This document shows, in pieces, positions 969 to 45,522 of a stretch of 45,522 nucleotides of DNA. Below the pieces are notes generated by a model that ran no database searches, was not told the DNA's origin, and saw nothing but the letters and a program-made list of their open reading frames with translations. Made by a program: the position numbers and the translations under genes. The DNA comes from a virus, in IMG/VR virus record IMGVR_UViG_3300037504_000719, positions 1 through 45,522 of that record. One strand, given 5' to 3'. The stretch's first letter is position 1. Every line of letters starts with the position of its first letter.

Positions 969-2759
969 TCAGGACTTCCTCCAGGCGGCGCAGAGGCGCT
1001 CTATCACTGCACCATTAACCTCCGCCGCACTGGGTTTCGTCTTTCTGCTCTGGACCTCGATCTTGGTGGCAATATGCTCCCTGAGCTGGACAAATCCCTC
1101 GTAGGCAGCTGAGGTCATCGTGACAGTCATCGTGATTTGCTCGAGCTCCTCTTCGTTGCCTCCTTCCCCAGCCCCTTCGTCTTCCTCCTCCTCGAGGTCC
1201 TCGAGGTAATTCTCCCAGTCGAAGGCGGCCACCTCAAGAGCGCTCTCGAGTTGGCGGTCGGAGAATGGTAGTCCGTCGATCGCCTCGTCCTTTCCTATGA
1301 GCTCCGAGAGCTCCTGCAGGATACGCGCCTCACCGAGAGGATCGTGGTCGCCGTGAGTGCGGTTGTAGATGAGGGTCAGTTGCTTGGCGGTCGCATCAGT
1401 CAGCCGACCGAGATCGACCACAGGGACGGTCCCATCCTCCATGACGCCTCGCAGAGACGTGGAGATCTCGTTTTCAGCGAACCCCCGCTCCTTGGCTACC
1501 AGAGAGAGCTCTCCCTCCTCGTATCGAGCTCTGAGGCTGTTCAGAATGCGCCAGCGTTGCTCTCCGTCGACTATCTCGAGGCCTTCGGGAGTCCTCCGGA
1601 CCGAGATCGGGTCCACGAACCCCTTGTGGGCTATCGACTGGCGCAGGGCGCGCTCCTGAGCTTTATTCAGGCGGTTCGGATTCCACGGATTCGGGCGGAT
1701 ATCTCCAGCTGGCACATACGTCACCACCAGGTCATGAGAAGGAGCTTCCTCCTGATTCTCTGCAGTCGGCGTATCTCCCTCTTGTGGTCCTTGAGCTCCG
1801 CCTGGAACCGCTTGTCCGTCGAGATCACCTTGCCCTCCGGATATAGGAGCTCGAACGACCACCTGACTCCCTGTCGCTCCGCTTTCGTCTGCGTTTTGTT
1901 CTTCCGCTTGATCCGCCTCTGATTCCTTAAGCGCACGATGATCCTCTCCCCAGTCAATTCCGCGTTGCTTCCAGAGTTGTGTGGCCTCGTCTATCATTTT
2001 CGCCGTCTTCAGAATGTTCACCATATTCCCGGCATTTTTCACCGGTTCTGGCCTGGTTGATGGATATTTCGGTTCGTTGTATCGACCTCGCTCATCGAGA
2101 TGTTTTCCCCATCTCCCAGCTGAGTTCCATGATGTCGAATCCACACAGTAATACGGGAACGAGAACAAAGCCTCCTTCAAAGTCGCACCGAATCCGTGAC
2201 ACCTCGGTATATTTTCTTTTCCCACTTCGGTGGTTATCACCTTCAGAACCCACTTTACCCACTCTAACCGCCTCGGCACACTGATATCCTTTCGATATGC
2301 AATTCCGAGTATTCCGGTATCCTTAGGCGTTATACGCTCGACAAGGACCTTCAGATATTCCTCCGGTTCATCCTGGTGAAACACCTCGACCACTGGGATA
2401 CCGCTACTTCTCAAGCGGTCTGCATTTTTCAGCGAATCCTCCATGGATTGCTTTCGTTCTTTCTCGGTACTATCCCTCCCTTTTTCGCCAGGTATTACAT
2501 CCAGATTTACACAGTAGACCTGGCACGAGTTCGAGTACATTTCGATCGCCTTATGACAATTGTCTATGTACTTATCTAGGTCTACTTCTTCGCCGATAGA
2601 CCACGCAGAAAACGCCCCAGAATCCAGCATGAACATATCGAGCCCCGGAGCTGGGTGTCCTTCCGGAAATGTATATGCTGCTGAAGCTAGAATACCTGTA
2701 GGCTTGTACGGTAGAAGTGTTTTTTGCCAATCACCGCCAACTGCAAACAGAATTCTCAC
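969..2759 (-). CDS. dpdA: DpdA-like deazaguanine DNA transglycosylase fused to a ParB-like domain, 596 aa
   Basis: Residues 1 to about 270 resemble the TGT-related DpdA family, which swaps guanine in DNA for a 7-deazaguanine. Visible marks are LDSGAFSAW with Asp46, equivalent to the TDSGGF aspartate of tRNA-guanine transglycosylase; HGFG at 188-191; and VDSTSW at 206-211. A low-complexity Gly/Gln/Glu linker (about 275-340) leads to a ParB/sulfiredoxin-like N-terminal domain (about 344-440) with DGEQRW at 398-403 in place of the ParB box. A C-terminal region follows an acidic stretch near 510-530. The GTG at 2759 overlaps the queC stop (GTGA). With queC, folE, queE and queD upstream it completes a preQ0-to-DNA pathway. 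The ParB part may target, oligomerise or cleave; that is inference. Confidence 0.85.
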   Translation of the reverse strand: MRILFAVGGDWQKTLLPYKPTGILASAAYTFPEGHPAPGLDMFMLDSGAFSAWSIGEEVDLDKYIDNCHKAIEMYSNSCQVYCVNLDVIPGEKGRDSTEKERKQSMEDSLKNADRLRSSGIPVVEVFHQDEPEEYLKVLVERITPKDTGILGIAYRKDISVPRRLEWVKWVLKVITTEVGKENIPRCHGFGATLKEALFSFPYYCVDSTSWNSAGRWGKHLDERGRYNEPKYPSTRPEPVKNAGNMVNILKTAKMIDEATQLWKQRGIDWGEDHRALKESEADQAEEQNADESGATGSQVVVRAPISGGQGDLDGQAVPGGAQGPQEGDTPTAENQEEAPSHDLVVTYVPAGDIRPNPWNPNRLNKAQERALRQSIAHKGFVDPISVRRTPEGLEIVDGEQRWRILNSLRARYEEGELSLVAKERGFAENEISTSLRGVMEDGTVPVVDLGRLTDATAKQLTLIYNRTHGDHDPLGEARILQELSELIGKDEAIDGLPFSDRQLESALEVAAFDWENYLEDLEEEEDEGAGEGGNEEELEQITMTVTMTSAAYEGFVQLREHIATKIEVQSRKTKPSAAEVNGAVIERLCAAWRKS

Positions 2760-3538
2760 GACTTCACCTTACCGATACAAACACGCACCTTCCAATCGCC
2801 GGTCAGAGCTTCCTCGAGCCCCTTGGGACGAGGTAGTGGCTCACCTGTTGGCAGCCCGTTTCTTCTGTCAGGGTCGCACCACATACCCTCCAGATACTGT
2901 TCCCAGCCTTTTTTCCGGAGCTCACAAGCGGGGCAGTCCCCGCAACCCGCTCCCCAAGGGTGCTCGTCGCGTTCCCCTCGATAGCAGGTATGGGTCACCT
3001 CGCGTATGACTTTGACGGCCTCGGAACCTCCCAGGCGCTCCGCCAACTCCCACGTCTGCCTCTTCGAGAGGTAGAGAAGCGGCGCGTATAGCTCGAAGTC
3101 CGGGATATCTAGACCGAGCCTGATGGTCGCCTGCAGTGACTCGATAGTCTCAGGCCTACAATCTGGATATCCCTCGTAGTCCTCCTGACTAACTCCTAGG
3201 ACGACCGTATCAGCTCCATGACGCACCCCGAAAATTGCTGCGTGCAGGGCTAATACGAGATTTCGCCCTGGTACGAATGTGTTCGGCGGGCCCGTCGTAT
3301 CGAGCTCGAGGCTTTGATCGGTCAGGTAGCTCCCGCCTCCGAGCCCGTCCACCTGCGCGATTCTCATCGGCACCTCGAGCCATTTAGCTACCCTGAGCGC
3401 TGCATCCCTCTCGACCGCGTGGCGCTGTCCGTAGTCGGCAAAAAGGGCCGTCACTTCATTGATTCCCCATCTCTGTACGGCCCACAGTAGGCACGTTGCA
3501 CTGTCCTGACCACCCGAAAGTAGTACGATCGCTTTCAT
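2756..3538 (-). CDS. queC: 7-cyano-7-deazaguanine synthase QueC, 260 aa
   Basis: Converts carboxy-deazaguanine to preQ0 with ATP and ammonia. The PP-loop SGGQDS is at residues 8-13, and four zinc cysteines lie near the C-terminus (C185, C199, C202, C205 in a CYRG...GCGDCPAC arrangement). Length is slightly above the usual ~230 aa. I chose ATG 3538 because GGAGG lies five bases before it; a GTG at 3544 would overlap the folE stop but leaves no spacing from that Shine-Dalgarno. Downstream it overlaps dpdA. No QueF is present, so preQ0 rather than preQ1 is the likely end product handed to DpdA. Confidence 0.95.
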   Translation of the reverse strand: MKAIVLLSGGQDSATCLLWAVQRWGINEVTALFADYGQRHAVERDAALRVAKWLEVPMRIAQVDGLGGGSYLTDQSLELDTTGPPNTFVPGRNLVLALHAAIFGVRHGADTVVLGVSQEDYEGYPDCRPETIESLQATIRLGLDIPDFELYAPLLYLSKRQTWELAERLGGSEAVKVIREVTHTCYRGERDEHPWGAGCGDCPACELRKKGWEQYLEGMWCDPDRRNGLPTGEPLPRPKGLEEALTGDWKVRVCIGKVKS

Positions 3539-3540
3539 GT

Positions 3541-4122
3541 TCACCTCCCGATAAGGCCCAGAAACTCAGCTCGAGCCTCCTGGTCCTCGAAGCACCCTCT
3601 CAGGGCGCTCGTGATTGTTTTCGTTCCGGGGCGTCGAATACCCCGGCTTTCCATGCAGAGGTGCCGGCATGAGAGAACCACACCGACACCGAGAGGATCG
3701 AGGGCGGAAGTCCAGAGAGCCTCGGCTATCTGCTCAGTCAGGCGCTCCTGAATCTGCAGACGGCGGGCGTAGATATCGGTAACCCTGGCCAGCTTCGAGA
3801 GGCCGAGGATGCGTCCGTCCTTCGGCACGTAGGCGATATGGGCCACACCAAAGAACGGCGCCATGTGGTGTTCACAGTGGCTGTACACCGCGATATCCCG
3901 GCACAGGATCATCTGGTCCCCGCCGTCCTCGAAGACCGTGAGGACGCCATCCGGATCCTGAGCGTACCCAGAGAACCACTCCCTAACCATCGCCCGCGCT
4001 ATGCGGTCAGGGGTCTCGAGGAGCCCCTCTCTCTTCGGATCATCTCCGAGGTGGTAGAGCACAGCCCTCATGCAGGCGGCGATAGCATCCTTTCCATATT
4101 CGCCTATCAGCTTCTCTCCCAT
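3541..4122 (-). CDS. folE: GTP cyclohydrolase I FolE, 193 aa
   Basis: Opens the imidazole ring of GTP to give dihydroneopterin triphosphate, the entry step to preQ0. Zinc ligands are visible as C83 and H86 in SHCEHHMAPF and C156 in HLCMESRG; ETPDR and the LSKLARV segment also fit the family. The ATG at 4122 has AGGAGGAGAG six bases upstream. An in-frame GTG at 4173 would add 17 residues but has no good ribosome site. E. coli FolE is 222 aa, so this is a compact version. The gene ends just before queC. Confidence 0.95.
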   Translation of the reverse strand: MGEKLIGEYGKDAIAACMRAVLYHLGDDPKREGLLETPDRIARAMVREWFSGYAQDPDGVLTVFEDGGDQMILCRDIAVYSHCEHHMAPFFGVAHIAYVPKDGRILGLSKLARVTDIYARRLQIQERLTEQIAEALWTSALDPLGVGVVLSCRHLCMESRGIRRPGTKTITSALRGCFEDQEARAEFLGLIGR

Positions 4123-4197
4123 CGTCTCTCCTCCTCTCGCAGGACTTCTCGTCCCGCGCGACCCAGTATTCACGTTGAACCCGCAAGCCCGTCTATC

Positions 4198-4217
4198 GAG
4201 CTCTCAGGAGCTCTCAG
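4198..4217. repeat. Tandem 10-bp repeat between queE and folE
   Basis: GAGCTCTCAG occurs twice in tandem at 4198-4217, in the 91-base spacer before folE and touching the end of queE. It contains the GAGCTC palindrome. Similar GCTCTCAG words recur near 16439 and 29825. No function is seen. Confidence 0.5.
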
Positions 4218-4849
4218 GCGATACCAAGAATCTTATGCAGCTGGACCCCGAGACGTACCCCGATAGGTAGAGGGGTATCGAGGACCAACTCCACGCATCG
4301 ATCCATCGCCGATTGGCGCTCATCCTCGTCCTCGCTCCAGGCCGGCTGCACAAACCAGGGGCACTCGATATGGCTGCCGTCCAGCCAAGGGATCTCGCCT
4401 TCAGCTGGGACCACATACTTCACCTCATCCGCCCTCTGTAGCTTCACCGGAGCCCCGAGCTTCGGTGATAGTGTGATCCAGCTGAGGACTGATGCCATAT
4501 CGCGATCTAGCCTCACCGTTCCGTTCGTCTCGACTCCGACTCGGTACCCCCGATTCAGGAGACCGAGAACGAGCGAGAGGTCCATCTGAAGTGTCGGCTC
4601 TCCTCCCGTCATCACCACAAGATCTTTCGGGCTGCCGCTCCCCGGAGATAAAACCTCGACCTGCTCAATGATTTCCATCATCGTGAGCTCCGAGAGCTCC
4701 TCGCCGAGCTTGGTGTCGCAGTCGAACCCCTCTTTCGCCTTCGAACAACTCAGGTTGCATCCGTGGAACCGGACGAAGATCGCAGGGATCCCAGCGAGCA
4801 TCCCCTCACCTTGGATGGAGCGGAATATGCTATGTACTTTGTAGGTCAT
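4214..4849 (-). CDS. queE: 7-carboxy-7-deazaguanine synthase QueE (radical SAM), 211 aa
   Basis: Radical SAM enzyme that contracts carboxy-tetrahydropterin to carboxy-deazaguanine. SIQGEG at 11-16 is the QueE N-terminal signature, and TGGEPT is the SAM-binding glycine motif. The cluster cysteines are C31, C35 and C44, a CX3CX8C spacing in place of the canonical CX3CX2C; the last cysteine is still followed by DT as in normal QueE. The ATG at 4849 lies in the tail of the 63-aa gene, with GAGGAGA upstream inside three 9-bp repeats (4851-4877) that also encode the Glu-rich end of that gene. Confidence 0.92.
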   Translation of the reverse strand: MTYKVHSIFRSIQGEGMLAGIPAIFVRFHGCNLSCSKAKEGFDCDTKLGEELSELTMMEIIEQVEVLSPGSGSPKDLVVMTGGEPTLQMDLSLVLGLLNRGYRVGVETNGTVRLDRDMASVLSWITLSPKLGAPVKLQRADEVKYVVPAEGEIPWLDGSHIECPWFVQPAWSEDEDERQSAMDRCVELVLDTPLPIGVRLGVQLHKILGIA

Positions 4850-5021
4850 CCTCAGTCTCCTCAATCTCCTCAGTCTCCTCGAGAGCCCTCCGGTATCCCG
4901 CAATGTAGGCTGCCTCCACGGTCCTCCGGAACGTCCCAGCTTGAGATATGAATCGCTCGATCACCTCGAGGATATCCTCCTCGTGAACTTCGCCGAGCTC
5001 GAACCCGTTGGTATTCCTCAT
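4830..5021 (-). CDS. Hypothetical acidic protein, 63 aa
   Basis: Small, largely helical protein ending in a run of Glu and Thr coded by 9-bp repeats. No family recognised. It is translationally coupled on both sides: its ATG overlaps the queD stop (ATGA at 5021-5018) and its 3' end runs 20 bases into queE. Retention between queD and queE suggests a role with the preQ0 enzymes, but nothing in the sequence proves it. Confidence 0.7.
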   Translation of the reverse strand: MRNTNGFELGEVHEEDILEVIERFISQAGTFRRTVEAAYIAGYRRALEETEEIEETEDDLQST

Positions 5022-5362
5022 CCTGTATACTCCGCACTTGTAGTCGGGCTCTCGCGCACAATAACGGCGCTCAGGTGGGGTATCACGCCCTCATGATCCT
5101 GGTAGATCTTCATGGCGATGAGCTCGGCAGTGGGATTCTCGAGCCACTCGTTCAGGTCCTTGTGGTCGAGGTGTTCCTCGAGGTATGGGCGGAAGATGGA
5201 GGATATCCCCCCGTAGTCCATCACCATCCCGCCTGGTTCCAGCTTCGCCGATCTCAGGACCAGATCGACTTCGTACGTATGCCCATGTTTCTGCCCGCAC
5301 TTCCCGTGGTCGGGAATGTGATGGCAGGCCGCAAAGGTGAAGGTCTTCGTGATCTTGTACAT
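5018..5362 (-). CDS. queD: 6-carboxy-tetrahydropterin synthase QueD, 114 aa
   Basis: Converts dihydroneopterin triphosphate to 6-carboxy-tetrahydropterin, the second step to preQ0. The catalytic Cys22 and zinc histidines H26 and H28 are seen in CGQKHGH, with the third ligand in CHH at 13-15; the HLDHKDLN and PTAE segments are typical of the family. Length fits QueD (about 120 aa). The ATG at 5362 was chosen for AAGGAGAAAG eight bases upstream; an earlier in-frame start at 5395 lacks one. It is the first preQ0 gene in transcription order, behind a 130-base leader. Confidence 0.95.
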   Translation of the reverse strand: MYKITKTFTFAACHHIPDHGKCGQKHGHTYEVDLVLRSAKLEPGGMVMDYGGISSIFRPYLEEHLDHKDLNEWLENPTAELIAMKIYQDHEGVIPHLSAVIVRESPTTSAEYTG

Positions 5363-6005: not shown

Positions 6006-6595
6006 TGGTTCTCCTGTTGTCGGCGCCTGACCCTCACAGAGGGCTTCGGCGCGCTGTTCTCAGCCTTTGCCTCTCCGACCCACCGGAAGGCATCCGGCCA
6101 TCTATCATAGGCAGCCGCTGCCGCAATCGCAACCGCTACCTGGACATCTATGCTCGTCTCGAGCAGCCTCGAGGCTCGGCCTCTAAGGGCTCCTCTGTAC
6201 CTAGCCAGAACGATCTCCTGCGTTTTCCTCTGTCGCCACTTCCGGGCATTCTTCGCGATCCCGAAGCGGCTCTGCCAGGTCTGCGCTTTCACTTTCTGGC
6301 CGACATTGAATCCCATCGCTGCAGCCACCACGGACCATGTGGAGGCTGACCGAATTACTGACATCGCGGAACCGAAGAACTTCGACGACGAGCCGTGCAG
6401 GTGCTGGTCCTCTATCACCACGAGACACTCGTTCGCCGTTGCTCCTACCTTCAAAACATCCGCATATGCCCTCTTCCTCGGCCACGGATCTTCCTCGGCT
6501 ACCTTGTGGAGGTCCACCCATTCGAGCTCCCCACGCGACGATACCACCGCCAGCCCACTCGAGTTTCCTGGGTCGATGCCGATGATCCAATTCAT
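6002..6595 (-). CDS. RuvC-like Holliday-junction resolvase, 197 aa
   Basis: RNase H-fold resolvase of the RuvC type. IIGIDPGNSSG carries the first catalytic Asp (D8), VVIEDQ the Glu (E62) and TSIDVQVAVAIA a C-terminal Asp (D150), in the order and spacing expected. It would cut branched replication or recombination intermediates before packaging. The long upstream open frame (to 6976) is noise: the ATG at 6595 overlaps the MT-A70 stop (ATGA). Length is near bacterial RuvC (about 170 aa) plus a basic tail. Confidence 0.8.
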   Translation of the reverse strand: MNWIIGIDPGNSSGLAVVSSRGELEWVDLHKVAEEDPWPRKRAYADVLKVGATANECLVVIEDQHLHGSSSKFFGSAMSVIRSASTWSVVAAAMGFNVGQKVKAQTWQSRFGIAKNARKWRQRKTQEIVLARYRGALRGRASRLLETSIDVQVAVAIAAAAAYDRWPDAFRWVGEAKAENSAPKPSVRVRRRQQENQ

Positions 6596-7412: not shown

Positions 7413-7428
7413 ACATTCTCCTGTTGGC

Positions 7429-9353: not shown

Positions 9354-9375
9354 GATCTACTCCTGTCTCCTGTTG

Positions 9376-10230
9376 TTACTCGCTCTCGTTCTCGGTCTCG
9401 GTAGTCTTCTTGGGGAACACAAAATCTGGGTCATCCGCCTCCTCGTGCGGCACCATGACCTCGAGAGGCATGGTCGCCAGGAGGAGGGACCCAAGGGTTG
9501 TCTGGCCAGGGGTCCACGTGTTCGTGATATAAACCGGAAACCCAGGTGCCGCCTTGCTCAGGAACCGTGTGGGTAGCTGCCAATAGATGCGGCGCTCGAG
9601 AACGCCATCATCGTCTTTCTGGGTGGCGTATCCCACCGCCGCGAACCACTGCCCTATCATCTTCCCTGTCCGCCCCGAAAGAACCGGCTCCACGTATCTG
9701 CGCGACTGGTCGTCCATCTTCGTCTCGCTCAGGGAGATGGCTACGACATTCACAGGGAGGCCGCGCAAATCATGAAGGAGATTCTCCATCGTCCTCGAGA
9801 TACGACCCCACGCCTGGATGTTCAGGTCGGGGATCTTGTGTGCGGGATCTCCGACCTTCACGCCTCCGCAGTAGTTCACGACCATCGAGAAAACGTCGCT
9901 CAGGGCGTCGATCACGACGGTCTGGACGATACGCTCCTCTCCTCGGTGCTCGAACCTGTAGGCTGGTTGCTCTCCGGTCTCAGGCTCGATCTCCACCTCA
10001 GACCCCTTCTTCAGGTCCTGGATGAGCGGCCACAGCTCCTCGAAGGAGGTGTAAATCTCCACGTCTGCATCCGGGTTCGCGCGAACGATCGACGGTAAGG
10101 CATGTTGCTCGGTCAGGGCGATAAACGGGCGAGGGCTCCGTGCTGCCCACGTTGTCTTACCGCTCCCGGAGGCCCCGTATACGAGGACGTCGAGATACGG
10201 GCGGGTCTGCATCATCTGACTTGCTTTCAT
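9376..10230 (-). CDS. RecA-like ATPase (Sak4/AAA_24 type), 284 aa
   Basis: Walker A GASGSGKT lies near residues 20-27 and a Walker-B-like TVVIDALSDVF in the middle, the pattern of phage Sak4-like recombinases related to RecA/RAD51 cores. It probably promotes strand annealing or exchange together with the downstream SSB-like protein. The ATG at 10230 is preceded by ACAACAGGAGAA; the longer frame to 10305 is non-coding. The C-terminus is acidic. Confidence 0.78.
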   Translation of the reverse strand: MKASQMMQTRPYLDVLVYGASGSGKTTWAARSPRPFIALTEQHALPSIVRANPDADVEIYTSFEELWPLIQDLKKGSEVEIEPETGEQPAYRFEHRGEERIVQTVVIDALSDVFSMVVNYCGGVKVGDPAHKIPDLNIQAWGRISRTMENLLHDLRGLPVNVVAISLSETKMDDQSRRYVEPVLSGRTGKMIGQWFAAVGYATQKDDDGVLERRIYWQLPTRFLSKAAPGFPVYITNTWTPGQTTLGSLLLATMPLEVMVPHEEADDPDFVFPKKTTETENESE

Positions 10231-10276
10231 TTTTCTTTCTCCTGTTGTTGTAGGTCTCTCACTGTCGAATTGCAGT

Positions 10277-11449: not shown

Positions 11450-11690
11450 TCTGCCCTCCACTGCTCATGATGTCCTCCTGGAGCGCCACCTGGAGCGCAT
11501 CGCAGATGTCCTCGTCTCTGGCCGTCTCGCCCTCATCGAGGGACGAATCGACCACCATCGACTCCCATATTCTGAGAGTACGGAGCAGGATGCGCGCCTG
11601 CGCCTGCTCGAGTCGGAGGCGCCAGCACGTTGCTCCGTCGATGCGGAGCTCGAGTCGAGCTGGCCGTGGGGTGAAATCGGTTCTCTTCAT
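11427..11690 (-). CDS. Hypothetical protein, first gene of the leftward operon, 87 aa
   Basis: Small Arg- and Leu-rich helical protein with an acidic C-terminal half; no family recognised. The ATG at 11690 has CAACAGGAGG upstream. It is the first gene after the strong minus-strand promoter at 11762-11790 and the dyad at 11717-11744, so it should be among the first made. Early first genes of this size are often host-takeover proteins, but nothing here shows that. Confidence 0.75.
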   Translation of the reverse strand: MKRTDFTPRPARLELRIDGATCWRLRLEQAQARILLRTLRIWESMVVDSSLDEGETARDEDICDALQVALQEDIMSSGGQNEILRNQ

Positions 11691-11716
11691 AAATCCTCCT
11701 GTTGCTACATGTTCGC

Positions 11717-11744
11717 GATATATCCATGAGGTGTGGGATATATC
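11717..11744. promoter_or_regulatory. Operator-like dyad, 9-bp perfect arms
   Basis: GATATATCC (11717-11725) and GGATATATC (11736-11744) form a perfect inverted repeat with a 10-base centre, the geometry of a dimeric helix-turn-helix repressor site. It lies about +10 to +38 relative to the predicted minus-strand start, so bound protein could block elongation, or the RNA could fold there. No cognate repressor is obvious; the 389-aa protein at 12080 is one candidate. Confidence 0.55.
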
Positions 11745-11761
11745 TCATCTCTCAGAGTACG

Positions 11762-11790
11762 ATTATATTCACCTACCTAGAATTTTTCAA
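11762..11790 (-). promoter_or_regulatory. Strong predicted sigma70 promoter for the leftward operon
   Basis: On the minus strand TTGAAA (11790-11785), a 17-base spacer and a perfect TATAAT (11767-11762) match consensus closely. Transcription would start near 11754 and run through the replication, methylation and preQ0 genes. Confidence 0.75.
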
Positions 11791-11855
11791 TACCCTAGTT
11801 CTATTCCTATTCCTATATATAAATAATAAATATCCTGGAGTTTTCCGGAATCATG

Positions 11856-11900
11856 CCATACCGATATGGTATTGACTACCATTGAGGGCCTTGGTAACCT
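11856..11900 (+). promoter_or_regulatory. Predicted promoter of the small RNA with overlapping palindrome
   Basis: TTGACT (11872-11877), 17 bases, then TAACCT (11895-11900) preceded by TGG, an extended -10 form. The -10 hexamer is weak, the -35 good. The palindromes CCATA/TATGG (11856-11869) and ATACC/GGTAT (11858-11872) abut and overlap the -35, suggesting an operator. The predicted +1 is near A11907. Confidence 0.5.
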
Positions 11901-11906
11901 ACCTCC

Positions 11907-11983
11907 ATACAACTTCTCCTGTTGTATTTAGCGCCTCGGCTCATCATCTCTCAACACAGGCCGGGGCGCTCTTCCTTTTTTTT
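11907..11983 (+). ncRNA. Predicted ~76-nt small RNA with an anti-Shine-Dalgarno loop
   Basis: From the predicted +1, ATACAAC (11907-11913) and GTTGTAT (11921-11927) form a perfect 7-bp stem with loop TTCTCCT (11914-11920); two bases later begins the terminator hairpin (11930-11970) and its T-run. The loop plus 3' arm is complementary to the extended ribosome motif of many phage genes, for example 13 contiguous bases at comM and 12 at the RecA-like gene. This two-hairpin layout is that of trans-acting regulatory RNAs. The alternative is that the minus strand carries the relic ribosome site of a 10-aa ORF (11908-11876). No expression data are available. Confidence 0.5.
11930..11983 (+). terminator. 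Intrinsic terminator of the predicted small RNA
   Basis: AGCGCCTCGGC (11930-11940) pairs with GCCGGGGCGCT (11960-11970) over 11 bp with one G-U pair, followed by CTTCC and eight T. The T-run is only on the plus-strand side. It lies upstream of the first rightward gene, so it terminates a short leader or sRNA rather than an operon. Confidence 0.75.
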
Positions 11984-12004
11984 GATTGTTCTGGCCGTTT
12001 ATGC

Positions 12005-12033
12005 TTGTCCGCCTACCTAAAACAACATATTCT
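12005..12033 (+). promoter_or_regulatory. Possible promoter of the rightward operon
   Basis: TTGTCC (12005-12010), a 17-base spacer and TATTCT (12028-12033), each matching four of six consensus bases, lie after the terminator and about 45 bases before the ATG at 12080. Moderate evidence only. Confidence 0.4.
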
Positions 12034-12079
12034 CTATTTGTGTTTGAGAGAAAGAGACCTTAACAACAGGAGAGACAAA

Positions 12080-13249
12080 ATGAACTTCACAATCAACATC
12101 AAGAGCTTCACCATGACCGCCATCCGTAACGCTTGCAAGGACGCACTCCACGGGGAAAAATTCCCCCGCAAGGTAGAGAACGGCGACGTCCATTACTTCA
12201 TGGTCACATACGATAGCGAGGTGGAGGTGTACACCATAGACCTGGATACCAGGTTCGGAGATCTCAAGGCGACTGGAAGCTCCCAAAAGGAGCTGGTCAA
12301 CTCCACATTTAAGGTCATCAACGATGCAATTCTCCAGGCCTCACTAAGCTACTCAAGGGAAGCCAGGAGCACCGAAGCTGGGAGCGAATACAAGGCCGTC
12401 ATGCAGGCCATGAGTGAGGCCGTCGAGGACGAGGCTGAGGCGGTACCCGAGCCGGAGCCCGACGAGGTTATCACCGAGGAGGAGGTGACCAGCTTCCTAG
12501 ACCTCGACACCGAAGACGATGACGTTACTGAGGACGCTGAAGCGCCAGCGAACGCCGAGCCCGTATGGGAGCTGGTGAAGGACCCGAAAGGAGCGTTCGT
12601 GGATGAGAACCTCGAGCGAGTCGATCTCATGAAGGACGGCTCCCCGGTCGATCCCCGCTTCATCGATGACGACGAGGACCGCCAGGCTGTCACTGGCTTC
12701 AATTTGATGGAGGTCGTCCGGAGCTTCTCGACGGACGATGAGGCGAACGATCTCGGGAGGAAGGTAGCGAGATCACCAGCTCCTCGAGACCTTGTCCTGC
12801 CCGTCAGTGACATCATGGAGCAACTCGCGAAGAACGGCACAGTTGAGGTGAGTGGTCACATTGAGCAGGGAGAGGACGGTGTCACCTTCAACTTTTCAAT
12901 CCGCGCTCCGAAGGCATCCGAGGCCCCGAAGGCCCCGAAGGCCCCGAAGGCCCCGAAGGCCCCGAAGGCCCCGAAGACCCCGAAGACCCCGAAGGCCCCG
13001 AAGGCTGGGACCTTTCGCGGTTGGATCTATGAGCAGCTCAGCAATCACGATGGGCCGTATAAAGTGAGAGACCTACTCGAAACAGCGCAAGCTGAGGATA
13101 TCGCTGGTATGAGAAGCTCATACGAGAAGAATCGCTCCAACGCCTACACCCGAATAAGTGATATGCTGAAGAGGATGGAGAAGAGCGGATTGGTTCTCAG
13201 GACCGAACTAGACGGACTCAAAGCCTACAAGGCTCTCGAGATCGAATAG
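12080..13249 (+). CDS. Acidic protein with (A/T)PK repeat linker and winged-helix-like C-terminus, 389 aa
   Basis: First gene of the rightward operon, unrecognised overall. Residues 1-100 look like a folded beta-alpha unit, about 110-160 are strongly acidic, a second unit follows (about 200-280), then nine APK/TPK repeats (about 282-308), and a final 80 residues with an alternating helical pattern (FRGWIYEQL, YTRISDMLKRMEKSGLV) like a winged-helix DNA-binding domain. The flexible basic linker between an acidic body and a DNA-binding-like end suggests a regulator or nucleoid protein. The ATG at 12080 has a full ACAACAGGAGA site. It could bind the dyads upstream; that is inference. Confidence 0.75.
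   Translation: MNFTINIKSFTMTAIRNACKDALHGEKFPRKVENGDVHYFMVTYDSEVEVYTIDLDTRFGDLKATGSSQKELVNSTFKVINDAILQASLSYSREARSTEAGSEYKAVMQAMSEAVEDEAEAVPEPEPDEVITEEEVTSFLDLDTEDDDVTEDAEAPANAEPVWELVKDPKGAFVDENLERVDLMKDGSPVDPRFIDDDEDRQAVTGFNLMEVVRSFSTDDEANDLGRKVARSPAPRDLVLPVSDIMEQLAKNGTVEVSGHIEQGEDGVTFNFSIRAPKASEAPKAPKAPKAPKAPKAPKTPKTPKAPKAGTFRGWIYEQLSNHDGPYKVRDLLETAQAEDIAGMRSSYEKNRSNAYTRISDMLKRMEKSGLVLRTELDGLKAYKALEIE
12923..13003 (+). repeat. Nine tandem 9-bp units coding the APK/TPK linker
   Basis: GCCCCGAAG is repeated nine times in frame, with units seven and eight changed to ACCCCGAAG. The period is a multiple of three, so copy-number change would alter linker length without frameshift. The unit codes Ala/Thr-Pro-Lys, a histone-H1-like basic spacer. 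Confidence 0.95.
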
Positions 13250-13258
13250 GTGGCCGAA

Positions 13259-13300
13259 ACGCCCCCACGCGGGGGCGTCTGACCGGGGATAGTCTCCCGG
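13259..13300 (+). other. Tandem hairpins after the 389-aa gene
   Basis: ACGCCCCC (13259-13266) and GGGGGCGT (13271-13278) form an 8-bp stem with a 4-base loop; CCGGG/CCCGG (13283-13287, 13296-13300) forms a second. No T-run follows, so this is more likely a processing or stability element, or a partial terminator, than a full intrinsic terminator. Confidence 0.5.
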
Positions 13301-13336
13301 CACTGATGAGGCAGACACCGAAAACAGGAGATGAGC

Positions 13337-13480
13337 ATGAAAGACCCTGGTTACGAACACGTAGAGTGCGAGGAGTGCGGAAGAAACATCCCGATCTTGG
13401 ATAGGAGGAGGGCTGTCCTGTGCTACGATTGCGAGGAACGTCAGGATGATGAGGAACGTGAGAGGGAACAGAGATCTTGA
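13337..13480 (+). CDS. Tiny zinc-ribbon protein, 47 aa
   Basis: Four cysteines in two CxxC pairs (CEEC at 11-14 and CYDC at 29-32), fifteen residues apart, give a compact zinc ribbon, followed by a Glu/Arg tail. The ATG at 13337 is six bases after AACAGGAG; an ATG two codons earlier would directly abut that site. The gene ends 31 bases before comM. Such mini-ribbons are often transcription or translation modulators, but the function here is unknown. Confidence 0.75.
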   Translation: MKDPGYEHVECEECGRNIPILDRRRAVLCYDCEERQDDEEREREQRS

Positions 13481-13511
13481 GGCTCTGAAAGACCAAGAAA
13501 CAGGAGAAGTT

Positions 13512-15032
13512 ATGTTTGGATATGTTCATTCCGCCGCTATCGTTGGGATCGAAGGCTATCATGTCCAGATCAAGGCGGATATCGCCAGCGGACCGCGGGA
13601 CTGCAATGTGGTCGGGTTGCCGAACGGAGCTATTCGGGAGTCGGTGATACGGGTCCAATCGGCCATTCGGAACGCGGGCTACCAGTGGCCGGACGGCCAC
13701 ATCACGATCAACTTGGCGCCGGCGGGGCTCAAGAAAGACGGCACGGCCTTCGACCTGCCCATCGCCCTGGCGGTGCTGGTGGCTTCGGAGCAGCTCGACC
13801 TCGAACCCGACCAGCTGGACCGCACATTCTTCGCCGGAGAGCTCTCCCTGGCGGGGGACGTCCTGCCCGTGCCCGGCATTTTGCCGAGGGCCAAGCTGGC
13901 CAGCGACCTGGGCGCTCAGACCCTGGTCGTCCCGGCCGACAATGCGGGCGAGGCGTCCATCATCGGAGAGCTCGAGGTGGTCCCCAGCTGCAACCTGGCG
14001 GACGCCGCCGCCTGGCTCGAGGGGAGCGCCACCGTTCCGCCCTGTGCCTCGCCGCCCGTCATCCGCCTCCCCTCACTTCCCCTCGACCTGGATGAGGTGC
14101 GCGGCCAGGCCATCACCAAGAGGGCGCTCGAGATCGCGGCGGCCGGGGGACACAATCTGTTGATGATCGGACCACCGGGGTCCGGCAAAACGATGTTGGC
14201 TCGCCGAGTGGTGACAATCTTGCCCCCCATGTCCTTTCAGGAGTCCCTCGAGACGACCAAGATCCACAGCGTCGCGGGCGCCTTGCCGCGGGGGGCGTCC
14301 ATGATCCAGACGCGTCCTTTCCGGGCGCCCCACTTCACCATCTCTTCGGTAGGGTTGGTAGGGGGCGGGACCAGCATCCCTCGCCCGGGAGAGTTATCAC
14401 TGGCCCACAACGGGGTACTGTTCCTGGACGATCTGCCCGAGTTCTCGCGGCGGGTGCTGGAGGTGCTCCGAGGGCCTCTGGAGGACCAGTTCATCAACCT
14501 CACCCGCGGCACGATGACCGTCACCTATCCCGCTGCCGTCACCCTCATCGCGGCCATGAACCCCTGCCCGTGCGGGTACCAGGGCTCGAGCCGGCGCCGC
14601 TGCAACTGCACTGCGAGGATGATCCAGCGGTACCGGGGGCGGGTTTCGGGGCCGATGTTGGACCAATTCGATATCCACACGGTGGTGGACGAGATCGCCT
14701 ACTCGGACCTGCAGGGCGCCGCCGACGGGGAGTCGAGCGAGCGAATTCGGGAGCGGGTTGTGCAGGCTCGTAACACGCAGCATCAACGCCTCGATTCGGC
14801 CTCGATCCACTGCAACGCGGAGATGGGAGCGGCACATCTGCGGCGGTGGTGTCGGCCGGATCGGGATGGGGAGAGGCTGCTCGAGCGGTGTGTGGATGTC
14901 TTTGGGATGTCTGCGCGGTCGTACAGTCGGATTCTGAAGGTGGCGCGGACGGTGGCTGATTTGGCAGGGGAGGAGGAGATTCGGGAGGAGCATGTGGCGG
15001 AGGCCATTGCGTTGCGACAGTTGGATAAGTAA
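13512..15032 (+). CDS. comM: ComM/YifB family Mg-chelatase-like AAA+ ATPase, 506 aa
   Basis: Full-length homologue of bacterial ComM (E. coli about 506 aa), a hexameric branch-migration helicase that aids integration of incoming DNA. Order: N-terminal Lon-protease-like ChlI domain (1-170, with an AGLKKDGTAFDLPIA segment), AAA+ core with Walker A GPPGSGKT (220-227) and Walker B LFLDDL (303-308), a four-cysteine CPCG/CNC insert (352-366), then the Mg-chelatase C-terminal lid. The ATG at 13512 follows AACAGGAGAAG. Its first 1.1 kb is about 65 percent GC by eye, above its neighbours, which points to capture from a host. All motifs look intact. Confidence 0.95.
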   Translation: MFGYVHSAAIVGIEGYHVQIKADIASGPRDCNVVGLPNGAIRESVIRVQSAIRNAGYQWPDGHITINLAPAGLKKDGTAFDLPIALAVLVASEQLDLEPDQLDRTFFAGELSLAGDVLPVPGILPRAKLASDLGAQTLVVPADNAGEASIIGELEVVPSCNLADAAAWLEGSATVPPCASPPVIRLPSLPLDLDEVRGQAITKRALEIAAAGGHNLLMIGPPGSGKTMLARRVVTILPPMSFQESLETTKIHSVAGALPRGASMIQTRPFRAPHFTISSVGLVGGGTSIPRPGELSLAHNGVLFLDDLPEFSRRVLEVLRGPLEDQFINLTRGTMTVTYPAAVTLIAAMNPCPCGYQGSSRRRCNCTARMIQRYRGRVSGPMLDQFDIHTVVDEIAYSDLQGAADGESSERIRERVVQARNTQHQRLDSASIHCNAEMGAAHLRRWCRPDRDGERLLERCVDVFGMSARSYSRILKVARTVADLAGEEEIREEHVAEAIALRQLDK

Positions 15033-15033
15033 C

Positions 15034-15213
15034 GTGGGAACGCTCACAATCACAAGACGAACAGGAGAGACCGTGATCGTGGGCGCCGCCACGATCGAAG
15101 TAGCGGAGATCAAGGGCAAGTCGGTCCGGCTCCGCATCATCGCGCCAAGGCGCATAGATATCGCTCGAGGAGAACTGAGAGAGCTCGAGCAGCATCAACA
15201 GGAGAAGAGATGA
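15034..15213 (+). CDS. csrA: CsrA-like carbon-storage/translation regulator, 59 aa
   Basis: Matches CsrA along its length: LTITRRTGETVIVG, a central AEIKGKSVRLRI, and the basic end APRRIDIARGELREL, with R45 aligned to the RNA-binding R44 of E. coli CsrA. CsrA dimers bind GGA motifs in RNA leaders and block or activate translation. The start is GTG at 15034, one base after the comM stop, with no strong ribosome site, so it depends on coupling to comM. Its stop overlaps the DUF932 start. Whether it acts on phage or host messages is not shown. Confidence 0.88.
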   Translation: MGTLTITRRTGETVIVGAATIEVAEIKGKSVRLRIIAPRRIDIARGELRELEQHQQEKR

Positions 15214-41192: not shown

Positions 41193-42010
41193 AGGAGCTC
41201 CTGTTGCTCTGGCCTATGGACCTCAGGTAGCTGGCGAACTCTAAGGTCCTCAGGCCACATCTCCGGGTGGGCTCCCTTCGCTGTCACTGGGACCCATTTA
41301 TCTTGGGCCCTCCAGTGTGCACGTTCCCACCTGGTGCCGAGTTGCTTCACGAAGCACGGGATCTCCGCAGCGGCACAATCATCGATGATGGCTGCAACCC
41401 ACGACTCCTTCATTGGACGCGCATTCTGCCCGCTCTCTCCGCCAACGATAACCCACTTCACGACCTCGAGTGCCTCCGACACGTCCACATATTCGAGTAG
41501 AGGCTCACAGCACAGAAAGAGCGAGGTGTGAACGTCTCTCAGAGCTCTCACTCGCTCCGAGAGCCTGCGCTGGGTCTCTCCGGTCACTCCGAACCACATG
41601 TTCGGGGATATCGCCTCAACGTCGTTCTCCAACTGCCACGACGCCACCACACCACGGAGCTGCTCGGCGTGTTTCGTGAGGAGGAACATCTGCGAGCCCC
41701 GCTCGGCGGCTACCTTCGCCACATCCAGAACCTTCGCCTGAACACCAAAAGGGACATCAGGGTGGAACAGGTCTCCCAGAGAGCAGACGAAAACGCTCCG
41801 CTCGTGCATCCACCTGAGAGGCTTCTCGAGGCGGTCGTCGTGGATCGTGATCGTGGTGAAGGGGCGATTGTATCGCCTGTCCCGCCGCTCCCTCATTTTC
41901 TCGATGAGAGCCTCGGCGTAGCAATTTCGACACCCCTCCGAGGCCTTCGTCGGACACCCGGTGACCGGGTTCCAGGACTCGTCTACCCATTCGATCTTCG
42001 TCCTACCCAT
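41189..42010 (-). CDS. DUF5131 / phage Gp37-Gp68 family protein, 273 aa
   Basis: Matches PF07505: TKIEWVDESWNPVTGC, then EGCRNCYAE, a three-cysteine motif of radical-SAM-like form, followed by VFVCSLGDLFHPDVP and VIVGGESGQNARPM. The family is widespread on phages and of unproven role. The ATG at 42010 was chosen because it fits the family start; it overlaps the zinc-ribbon gene by eight bases. Confidence 0.85.
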   Translation of the reverse strand: MGRTKIEWVDESWNPVTGCPTKASEGCRNCYAEALIEKMRERRDRRYNRPFTTITIHDDRLEKPLRWMHERSVFVCSLGDLFHPDVPFGVQAKVLDVAKVAAERGSQMFLLTKHAEQLRGVVASWQLENDVEAISPNMWFGVTGETQRRLSERVRALRDVHTSLFLCCEPLLEYVDVSEALEVVKWVIVGGESGQNARPMKESWVAAIIDDCAAAEIPCFVKQLGTRWERAHWRAQDKWVPVTAKGAHPEMWPEDLRVRQLPEVHRPEQQELL

Positions 42011-44751: not shown

Positions 44752-44781
44752 CGTCGTTCCTCTCCTGTTGTTGCATGGTCA

Positions 44782-45264: not shown

Positions 45265-45443
45265 TCCTCACCTCCATCTTCGACCTCGATCTCGAGGCCG
45301 GAGATCCACTCGAGCGCCGCGTCGAATGCCTCGAGCGTTATCGCCGACCGGATATGCAACTCCGGGTACCCTTCTGCGTTCTTTCCCCGATGCAGGGTGA
45401 GGTTTCGGGCGAACTGTTCAGCGAAGCTACCTCTTCTATCCAT
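45261..45443 (-). CDS. Hypothetical protein, 60 aa
   Basis: Small alpha-beta protein, acidic C-terminus; no family recognised. ATG 45443 (equal to position 48) overlaps the stop of the 87-aa gene and follows ACAGGAGAAG. On the circular map it continues directly from the gene at 41-304. Confidence 0.7.
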   Translation of the reverse strand: MDRRGSFAEQFARNLTLHRGKNAEGYPELHIRSAITLEAFDAALEWISGLEIEVEDGGEE

Positions 45444-45522
45444 CTCTCTTCTCCTGTAGTAGCCCAGCGAAATGCAAGGCCTGTTCGATTGTGGCGCCGT
45501 AGTGCAGATCCCCAGGATAGGG
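45396..45522. repeat. Terminal direct repeat, right copy
   Basis: Identical to 1-127. It contains the start of the 60-aa gene and a 3' fragment of the 87-aa gene (45436-45522), which should not be counted twice. Removing one copy gives the 45,395-bp circle. Confidence 0.95.

Follow-up and report, generated by a model that had tools for sequence, protein, structure and literature searches.

In the current study, we describe a candidate regulatory RNA of approximately 77 nt, at positions 11907-11983 on the plus strand of an uncultured phage genome of 45.5 kb (the window, i.e., the whole stretch of 45,522 nucleotides analyzed), whose first hairpin reads, in reverse complement, as (A)CAACAGGAGA(A), an extended ribosome-binding site of the phage itself. 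The hairpin, the terminator-type stem, the T8 run, the shared ribosome site and the complementarity between site and hairpin can be read directly in the sequence (Table 1). Judging from these features, we consider it moderately probable that the element is a trans-acting anti-ribosome-site RNA damping early translation.

The record carries a direct terminal repeat of 127 bp (1-127 and 45396-45522), as found in complete circular or terminally redundant assemblies, and thus probably represents a complete genome of about 45.4 kb. Start codons were assigned by a simple Shine-Dalgarno (SD) rule and by eye, with no trained gene caller. The minus strand encodes a cluster at 2756-5362 (QueC, GTP cyclohydrolase I, a radical SAM protein in a QueE-like position and a QueD-like PTPS), which is likely a preQ0 / 7-deazaguanine DNA modification pathway, and the plus strand carries at 13512-15032 a phage-borne ComM/YifB-like ATPase of the Mg-chelatase family, which shares 46% identity with copies on contigs of gut phages. 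The consensus-like promoter TTGAAA-17-TATAAT and a FolE of the bacterial type suggest that the host may be a bacterium.

Table 1. Positions of the candidate RNA, its surroundings and its predicted target sites
Feature	Position	Strand	Description
Hairpin 1	11907-11927	+	7 perfect pairs, loop UUCUCCU; arms 11907-11913 / 11921-11927
Terminator-type stem	11930-11970	+	12 pairs (10 Watson-Crick, 2 G-U), 11930-11941 with 11959-11970; loop 17 nt
T8 run	11976-11983	+	would form the 3' end of the RNA
Predicted sigma70-type promoter of the RNA	11872-11900	+	TTGACT-17-TAACCT, TG one base before the -10; rank 5
Predicted promoter of the leftward operon (start 11690)	11762-11790	-	TTGAAA-17-TATAAT, 11/12 matches; rank 1, the strongest of the sigma70 type genome-wide
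Predicted promoter of the 12080 operon	12005-12033	+	TTGTCC-17-TATTCT, past the terminator; rank 14
CCTACCT motif, operator candidate	11898-11904	+	at -10/+1 of the RNA promoter
Other CCTACCT copies	11772-11778, 12012-12018		each within one of the other two predicted promoters
Antisense 10-codon ORF MEVGYQGPQW	11876-11908	-	ATG 11908-11906, 7 nt after AGGAG
Site ACAACAGGAGAA, gene start 6005	6009-6020	-	12-nt complement, -19.4 kcal/mol
Site CAACAGGAGAA, gene start 7412	7416-7426	-	11-nt complement, -20.5 kcal/mol
Site ACAACAGGAGA, upstream of start 9353	9366-9376	-	11-nt complement, -21.5 kcal/mol
Site ACAACAGGAGAA, Sak4-like gene, start 10230	10237-10248	-	12-nt complement, -19.6 kcal/mol
Site CAACAGGAG, gene start 11690	11696-11704	-	9-nt complement, -19.2 kcal/mol
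Site ACAACAGGAGA, gene start 12080	12063-12073	+	11-nt complement, -19.3 kcal/mol
Site AACAGGAGA, small gene, start 13337	13323-13331	+	9-nt complement, -14.3 kcal/mol
Site AACAGGAGAAGTT, ComM-like gene, start 13512	13499-13511	+	13-nt complement, -20.4 kcal/mol
Site CAACAGGAGAAG, gene start 15210	15196-15207	+	12-nt complement, -20.3 kcal/mol
Site CAACAGGAG, large terminase gene, GTG start 41192	41198-41206	-	9-nt complement, -18.2 kcal/mol; weak target
Site ACAACAGGAGA, gene start 44751	44761-44771	-	11-nt complement, -22.0 kcal/mol
Site ACAGGAGAAG, gene start 45443	45448-45457	-	10-nt complement, -19.2 kcal/mol

The element lies inside a divergent region of 390 bp between a leftward operon starting at 11690 and a rightward operon starting at 12080, and folds with -28 kcal/mol (z -6.8), an energy equalled by no shuffled sequence. 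A preliminary description of this DNA had reported a perfect 7-bp hairpin with loop UUCUCCU at 11907, which is exact, followed by an 11-bp terminator stem and a T8 run, of which the T8 run holds, being the only one in the genome, whereas the stem has 12 pairs, two of them G-U. Runs of six or more T occur six times in the whole record on both strands, and only this T8 sits behind a strong stem. The five nucleotides CUUCC separate stem and run on the RNA, so that the T8 begins 6 nt past the stem, and for this reason a simple, strict terminator scan omits 11930-11983; this spacing and the 17-nt loop are atypical of an intrinsic terminator. The genes immediately upstream of 11907 are all leftward and there is no plus-strand gene that the T8 could serve, and therefore the terminator would most naturally serve a short RNA starting inside the divergent region. 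As a background rate, we found 189 terminator-like sites in the 3.9 Mb of sequence that was fetched, most of it from phages. An adjoining upstream hairpin was present at 13 of them, and the loop contained CTCC, CCTC or TCCT at only two of the 189, i.e., the element described here and a weaker one in L332.

A promoter-like pair with TTGACT and a 17-bp spacer, also listed in the preliminary description, is present 7 nt upstream of hairpin 1. All sites on both strands of the 45.5 kb were ranked with a rough sigma70 weight matrix built from our own approximate frequencies, and the three distinct predicted promoters of the divergent region are among the 14 best-scoring sites of the genome. The -10 element of the pair (TAACCT) fits the consensus at only three of six positions, and its score is equalled on average by dinucleotide shuffles of the AT-rich divergent region and is not significant alone, so that the argument for this promoter is its position and not its score. 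The heptamer CCTACCT occurs at all three predicted promoters, with three of its seven genomic copies falling within these 390 bp, and may be a shared operator. While none of 2000 shuffles contained this motif three times, some 7-mer recurred three times in 480 of the 2000 (24%), and the operator is therefore only suggestive. The leader of the leftward operon also contains an inverted repeat, GATATATCC-N10-GGATATATC (11717-11744), which could be an operator or a leader hairpin.

The loop and 3' arm of hairpin 1 together form UUCUCCUGUUGU, which is complementary to the extended early ribosome site; the hairpin's complement, ACAACAGGAGAA, is itself the consensus ribosome site among the non-structural genes. 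At least 9 contiguous complementary nucleotides (range 9-13) are found at the 12 predicted starts of Table 1, and the 13 overlapping 11-mer matches to the hairpin complement in the genome all fall within predicted ribosome sites. At start 9353, the spacing between site and ATG is unusually long and a second AGGAG lies nearer, and the site of 45443 is also present at the left end of the genome through the terminal repeat. Defining the structural part as 16.5-39.7 kb and counting the terminase (41192) as non-structural, 12 of 29 non-structural starts and 0 of 27 structural starts reach this length (Fisher p 9e-5). When the arms were shuffled and the loop was kept, 56 of 2000 hairpins matched as many starts at 9 nt. 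Contiguous matches were used for this control, since random GC-rich arms bind everything and duplex energies were thus uninformative.

Predicted duplex energies at the twelve starts range from -14.3 to -22.0 kcal/mol, whereas the same sites bind a generic 16S tail, which may not be that of the host, more weakly (-7.4 to -10.4 kcal/mol). After the cost of opening both partners, the net pairing energy is -5.8 to -14.2 kcal/mol at 11 of the 12 starts, with a gain of 8 to 14 kcal/mol at ten of them and 5.8 at 13337, and the terminase leaves the favorable list. The split between structural and non-structural genes is not absolute, since site 27734, which belongs to the structural part and has a contiguous match of 8 nt, scores a net -10.7. 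These results bear out the proposal of the preliminary description that loop and 3' arm are complementary to the phage's ACAACAGGAGAA sites: the match is real and far above chance. The fold, the terminator, the placement of the promoter and the complementarity to 12 starts support, as to shape, its view of a small RNA whose loop is directed against ribosome sites, and its idea of one RNA tuning many phage genes stands in a narrower form, limited mostly to non-structural genes.

The complementarity is not due to chance, yet its meaning could lie on either strand. On the minus strand, ACAACAGGAGAA would be the ribosome site of the 10-codon ORF MEVGYQGPQW, which would encode a leader peptide or be what is left of a lost gene, and the complementarity of the plus strand would then be automatic. 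The site equals the early consensus exactly and its distance to the ATG is normal, although a start codon at a fitting distance is frequent by chance (10-30% by our estimate). However, the stem flanking the site is 7 bp here and at most 4 bp at all 12 real ribosome sites, and random sites reached 7 bp in only 0.17% of the trials. The ORF, moreover, stops after 10 codons, overlaps the -10 element and CCTACCT, and has the strong leftward promoter on its downstream side and lower-scoring minus-strand promoters upstream. The T8, in turn, points in the plus-strand direction. We therefore regard the ORF as a live but less likely explanation, and a plus-strand RNA as clearly the more probable reading. 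A longer minus-strand ORF with a TTG start (41 aa, 11787-11912) was rejected with a codon score of -0.25.

The element could also act in cis as a leader of the 12080 operon, with the T8 ending most transcripts and, in read-through transcripts, the hairpin able to pair with the ribosome site of 12080, 137 nt downstream. Hairpin and site are on the same strand with a perfect 11-nt complement, and the terminator lies between promoter and gene. On the other hand, another predicted promoter (rank 14) is found past the terminator, and the same complement fits eleven other starts, which makes this leader rather improbable; the folding that addressed an antiterminator here was limited to the minimum-energy fold. 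We likewise discarded an extension of gene 12080 at its N-terminus across the region: the frame is open from 11882, but its codon score of -0.36 is non-coding-like, compared with +0.53 over the gene's first 66 codons. A type II hammerhead ribozyme, the sole Rfam match in the window (57 bits vs a gathering score of 37), occupies 13252-13320 (+). It starts 2 nt past the stop codon of gene 12080-13249 and extends up to the ribosome site of gene 13337; its GUC cleavage site ends at 13279, and it could cleave the early mRNA so as to separate these two genes. Finally, it is very doubtful that stem and T8 merely insulate the divergent region from plus-strand antisense transcription with an incidental hairpin match, for, frequent as terminators are between divergent transcription units, the adjacent hairpin is perfect and fits the early ribosome-site consensus over 11-12 nt, while approximately 2e-4 chance matches of this length are expected in 390 bp by our estimate.

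For the trans-acting RNA that we favor, we propose a theoretical scheme. The RNA, of approximately 77 nt, would be transcribed rightward from 11907 and end at the T8. Hairpin 1 would show its UUCUCCU loop as a seed that lands on AGGAG, after which the 3' arm would zip onto CAAC, so that UUCUCCUGUUGU pairs with (A)CAACAGGAGA(A) and covers the ribosome site. In this way, 30S subunits would be kept off about twelve mostly non-structural genes, whereas the structural genes would escape by their use of other ribosome sites. As the predicted promoter lies between two early operons, maybe with a shared CCTACCT, the most likely role would be that of a built-in brake, limiting the synthesis of early proteins while early transcription rises, with an operator perhaps common to the promoter of the RNA and those of both early operons. 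Given that the targets lie to either side of the RNA gene and are for the most part non-structural, the simplest role would be to feed back negatively on early expression. More tentatively, and with less confidence than in the RNA as such, we suggest the possibility of a translational regulon, in which some twelve mostly non-structural genes keep an extended ribosome site beyond the need of the ribosome, and in which one small RNA of the early region switches all of them off and spares the structural genes.

We searched for relatives carrying the 11690-12080 region with phage DNA, with the proteins of 12080, the exonuclease and ComM, and with the terminase in genomes and viral contigs, and found none among the records available. 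In these searches and in the ComM and terminase alignments, the nearest terminase was 52% identical; terminase relatives at about 47-52% came from Sneathiella genomes, Rhizobium phages and a Methanoculleus virus, and the terminase relatives had no early genes in common with this phage and no synteny around the region. The exact 15-mer CAACTTCTCCTGTTG occurs at no fewer than 120 loci in viral contigs; among the matches listed, none has the hairpin-plus-terminator arrangement, and they look like chance or coding matches. A search of the viral contigs for the hairpin with a T6 at the right distance likewise gave no match.

No Rfam family matched the element at or above its gathering score, and the best local match (ncS54, 18.4 bits vs the 43 needed) reflects a likeness of the terminator stem. 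Considering its sequence, the candidate RNA would be a fresh version of the known type of anti-SD small RNAs, outside every Rfam family. As is characteristic of this type, 11907-11927 presents an unpaired pyrimidine loop complementary to the SD sites of several mRNAs. In the alpha-r14/cuckoo RNAs of alphaproteobacteria, such as NfeR1 of Sinorhizobium, anti-SD hairpin loops silence mRNAs by blocking the ribosome site (PMC10746234), and the block proposed here would work like that of NfeR1. The alpha-r14/cuckoo RNAs, however, are chromosomal, have three hairpins each with CCUCCUCCC and target host genes, whereas the phage RNA has one such hairpin, with the loop UUCUCCU, and its pairing would extend past the SD into the phage-specific extension of the ribosome site.

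Short phage RNAs that pair with phage mRNA have been described previously, i.e., the c4 RNA of phages P1/P7, which pairs around the ribosome site via its loops, and the sar RNA of P22 (PMC12197685). Each of these has one described target, ant (PMC12197685), compared with about twelve predicted targets sharing one common site in the current study. The OOP RNA of lambda, a phage-encoded regulatory RNA of 77 nt (PMC12197685), is similar in length; however, it is a cis antisense RNA to cII, while the element described here is a proposed anti-ribosome-site RNA. The phage small RNAs covered in one review mostly target one phage gene or host genes (PMC12197685), and those blocking a ribosome site that we found described in the open-access literature have one phage target. 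A similar problem is solved in phage T4, in which RegB cuts GGAG in early initiation regions and RegA competes at about 30 mRNAs (PMC3014915), so that one phage factor acts on the initiation sites of many early genes, although RegB and RegA are proteins. If the proposed regulon is real, the element would be an RNA counterpart of RegB/RegA, would let a single molecule lead from the expression of early genes to that of structural genes, and would suggest why conserved bases without a pairing partner in 16S rRNA can occur in phage ribosome sites.
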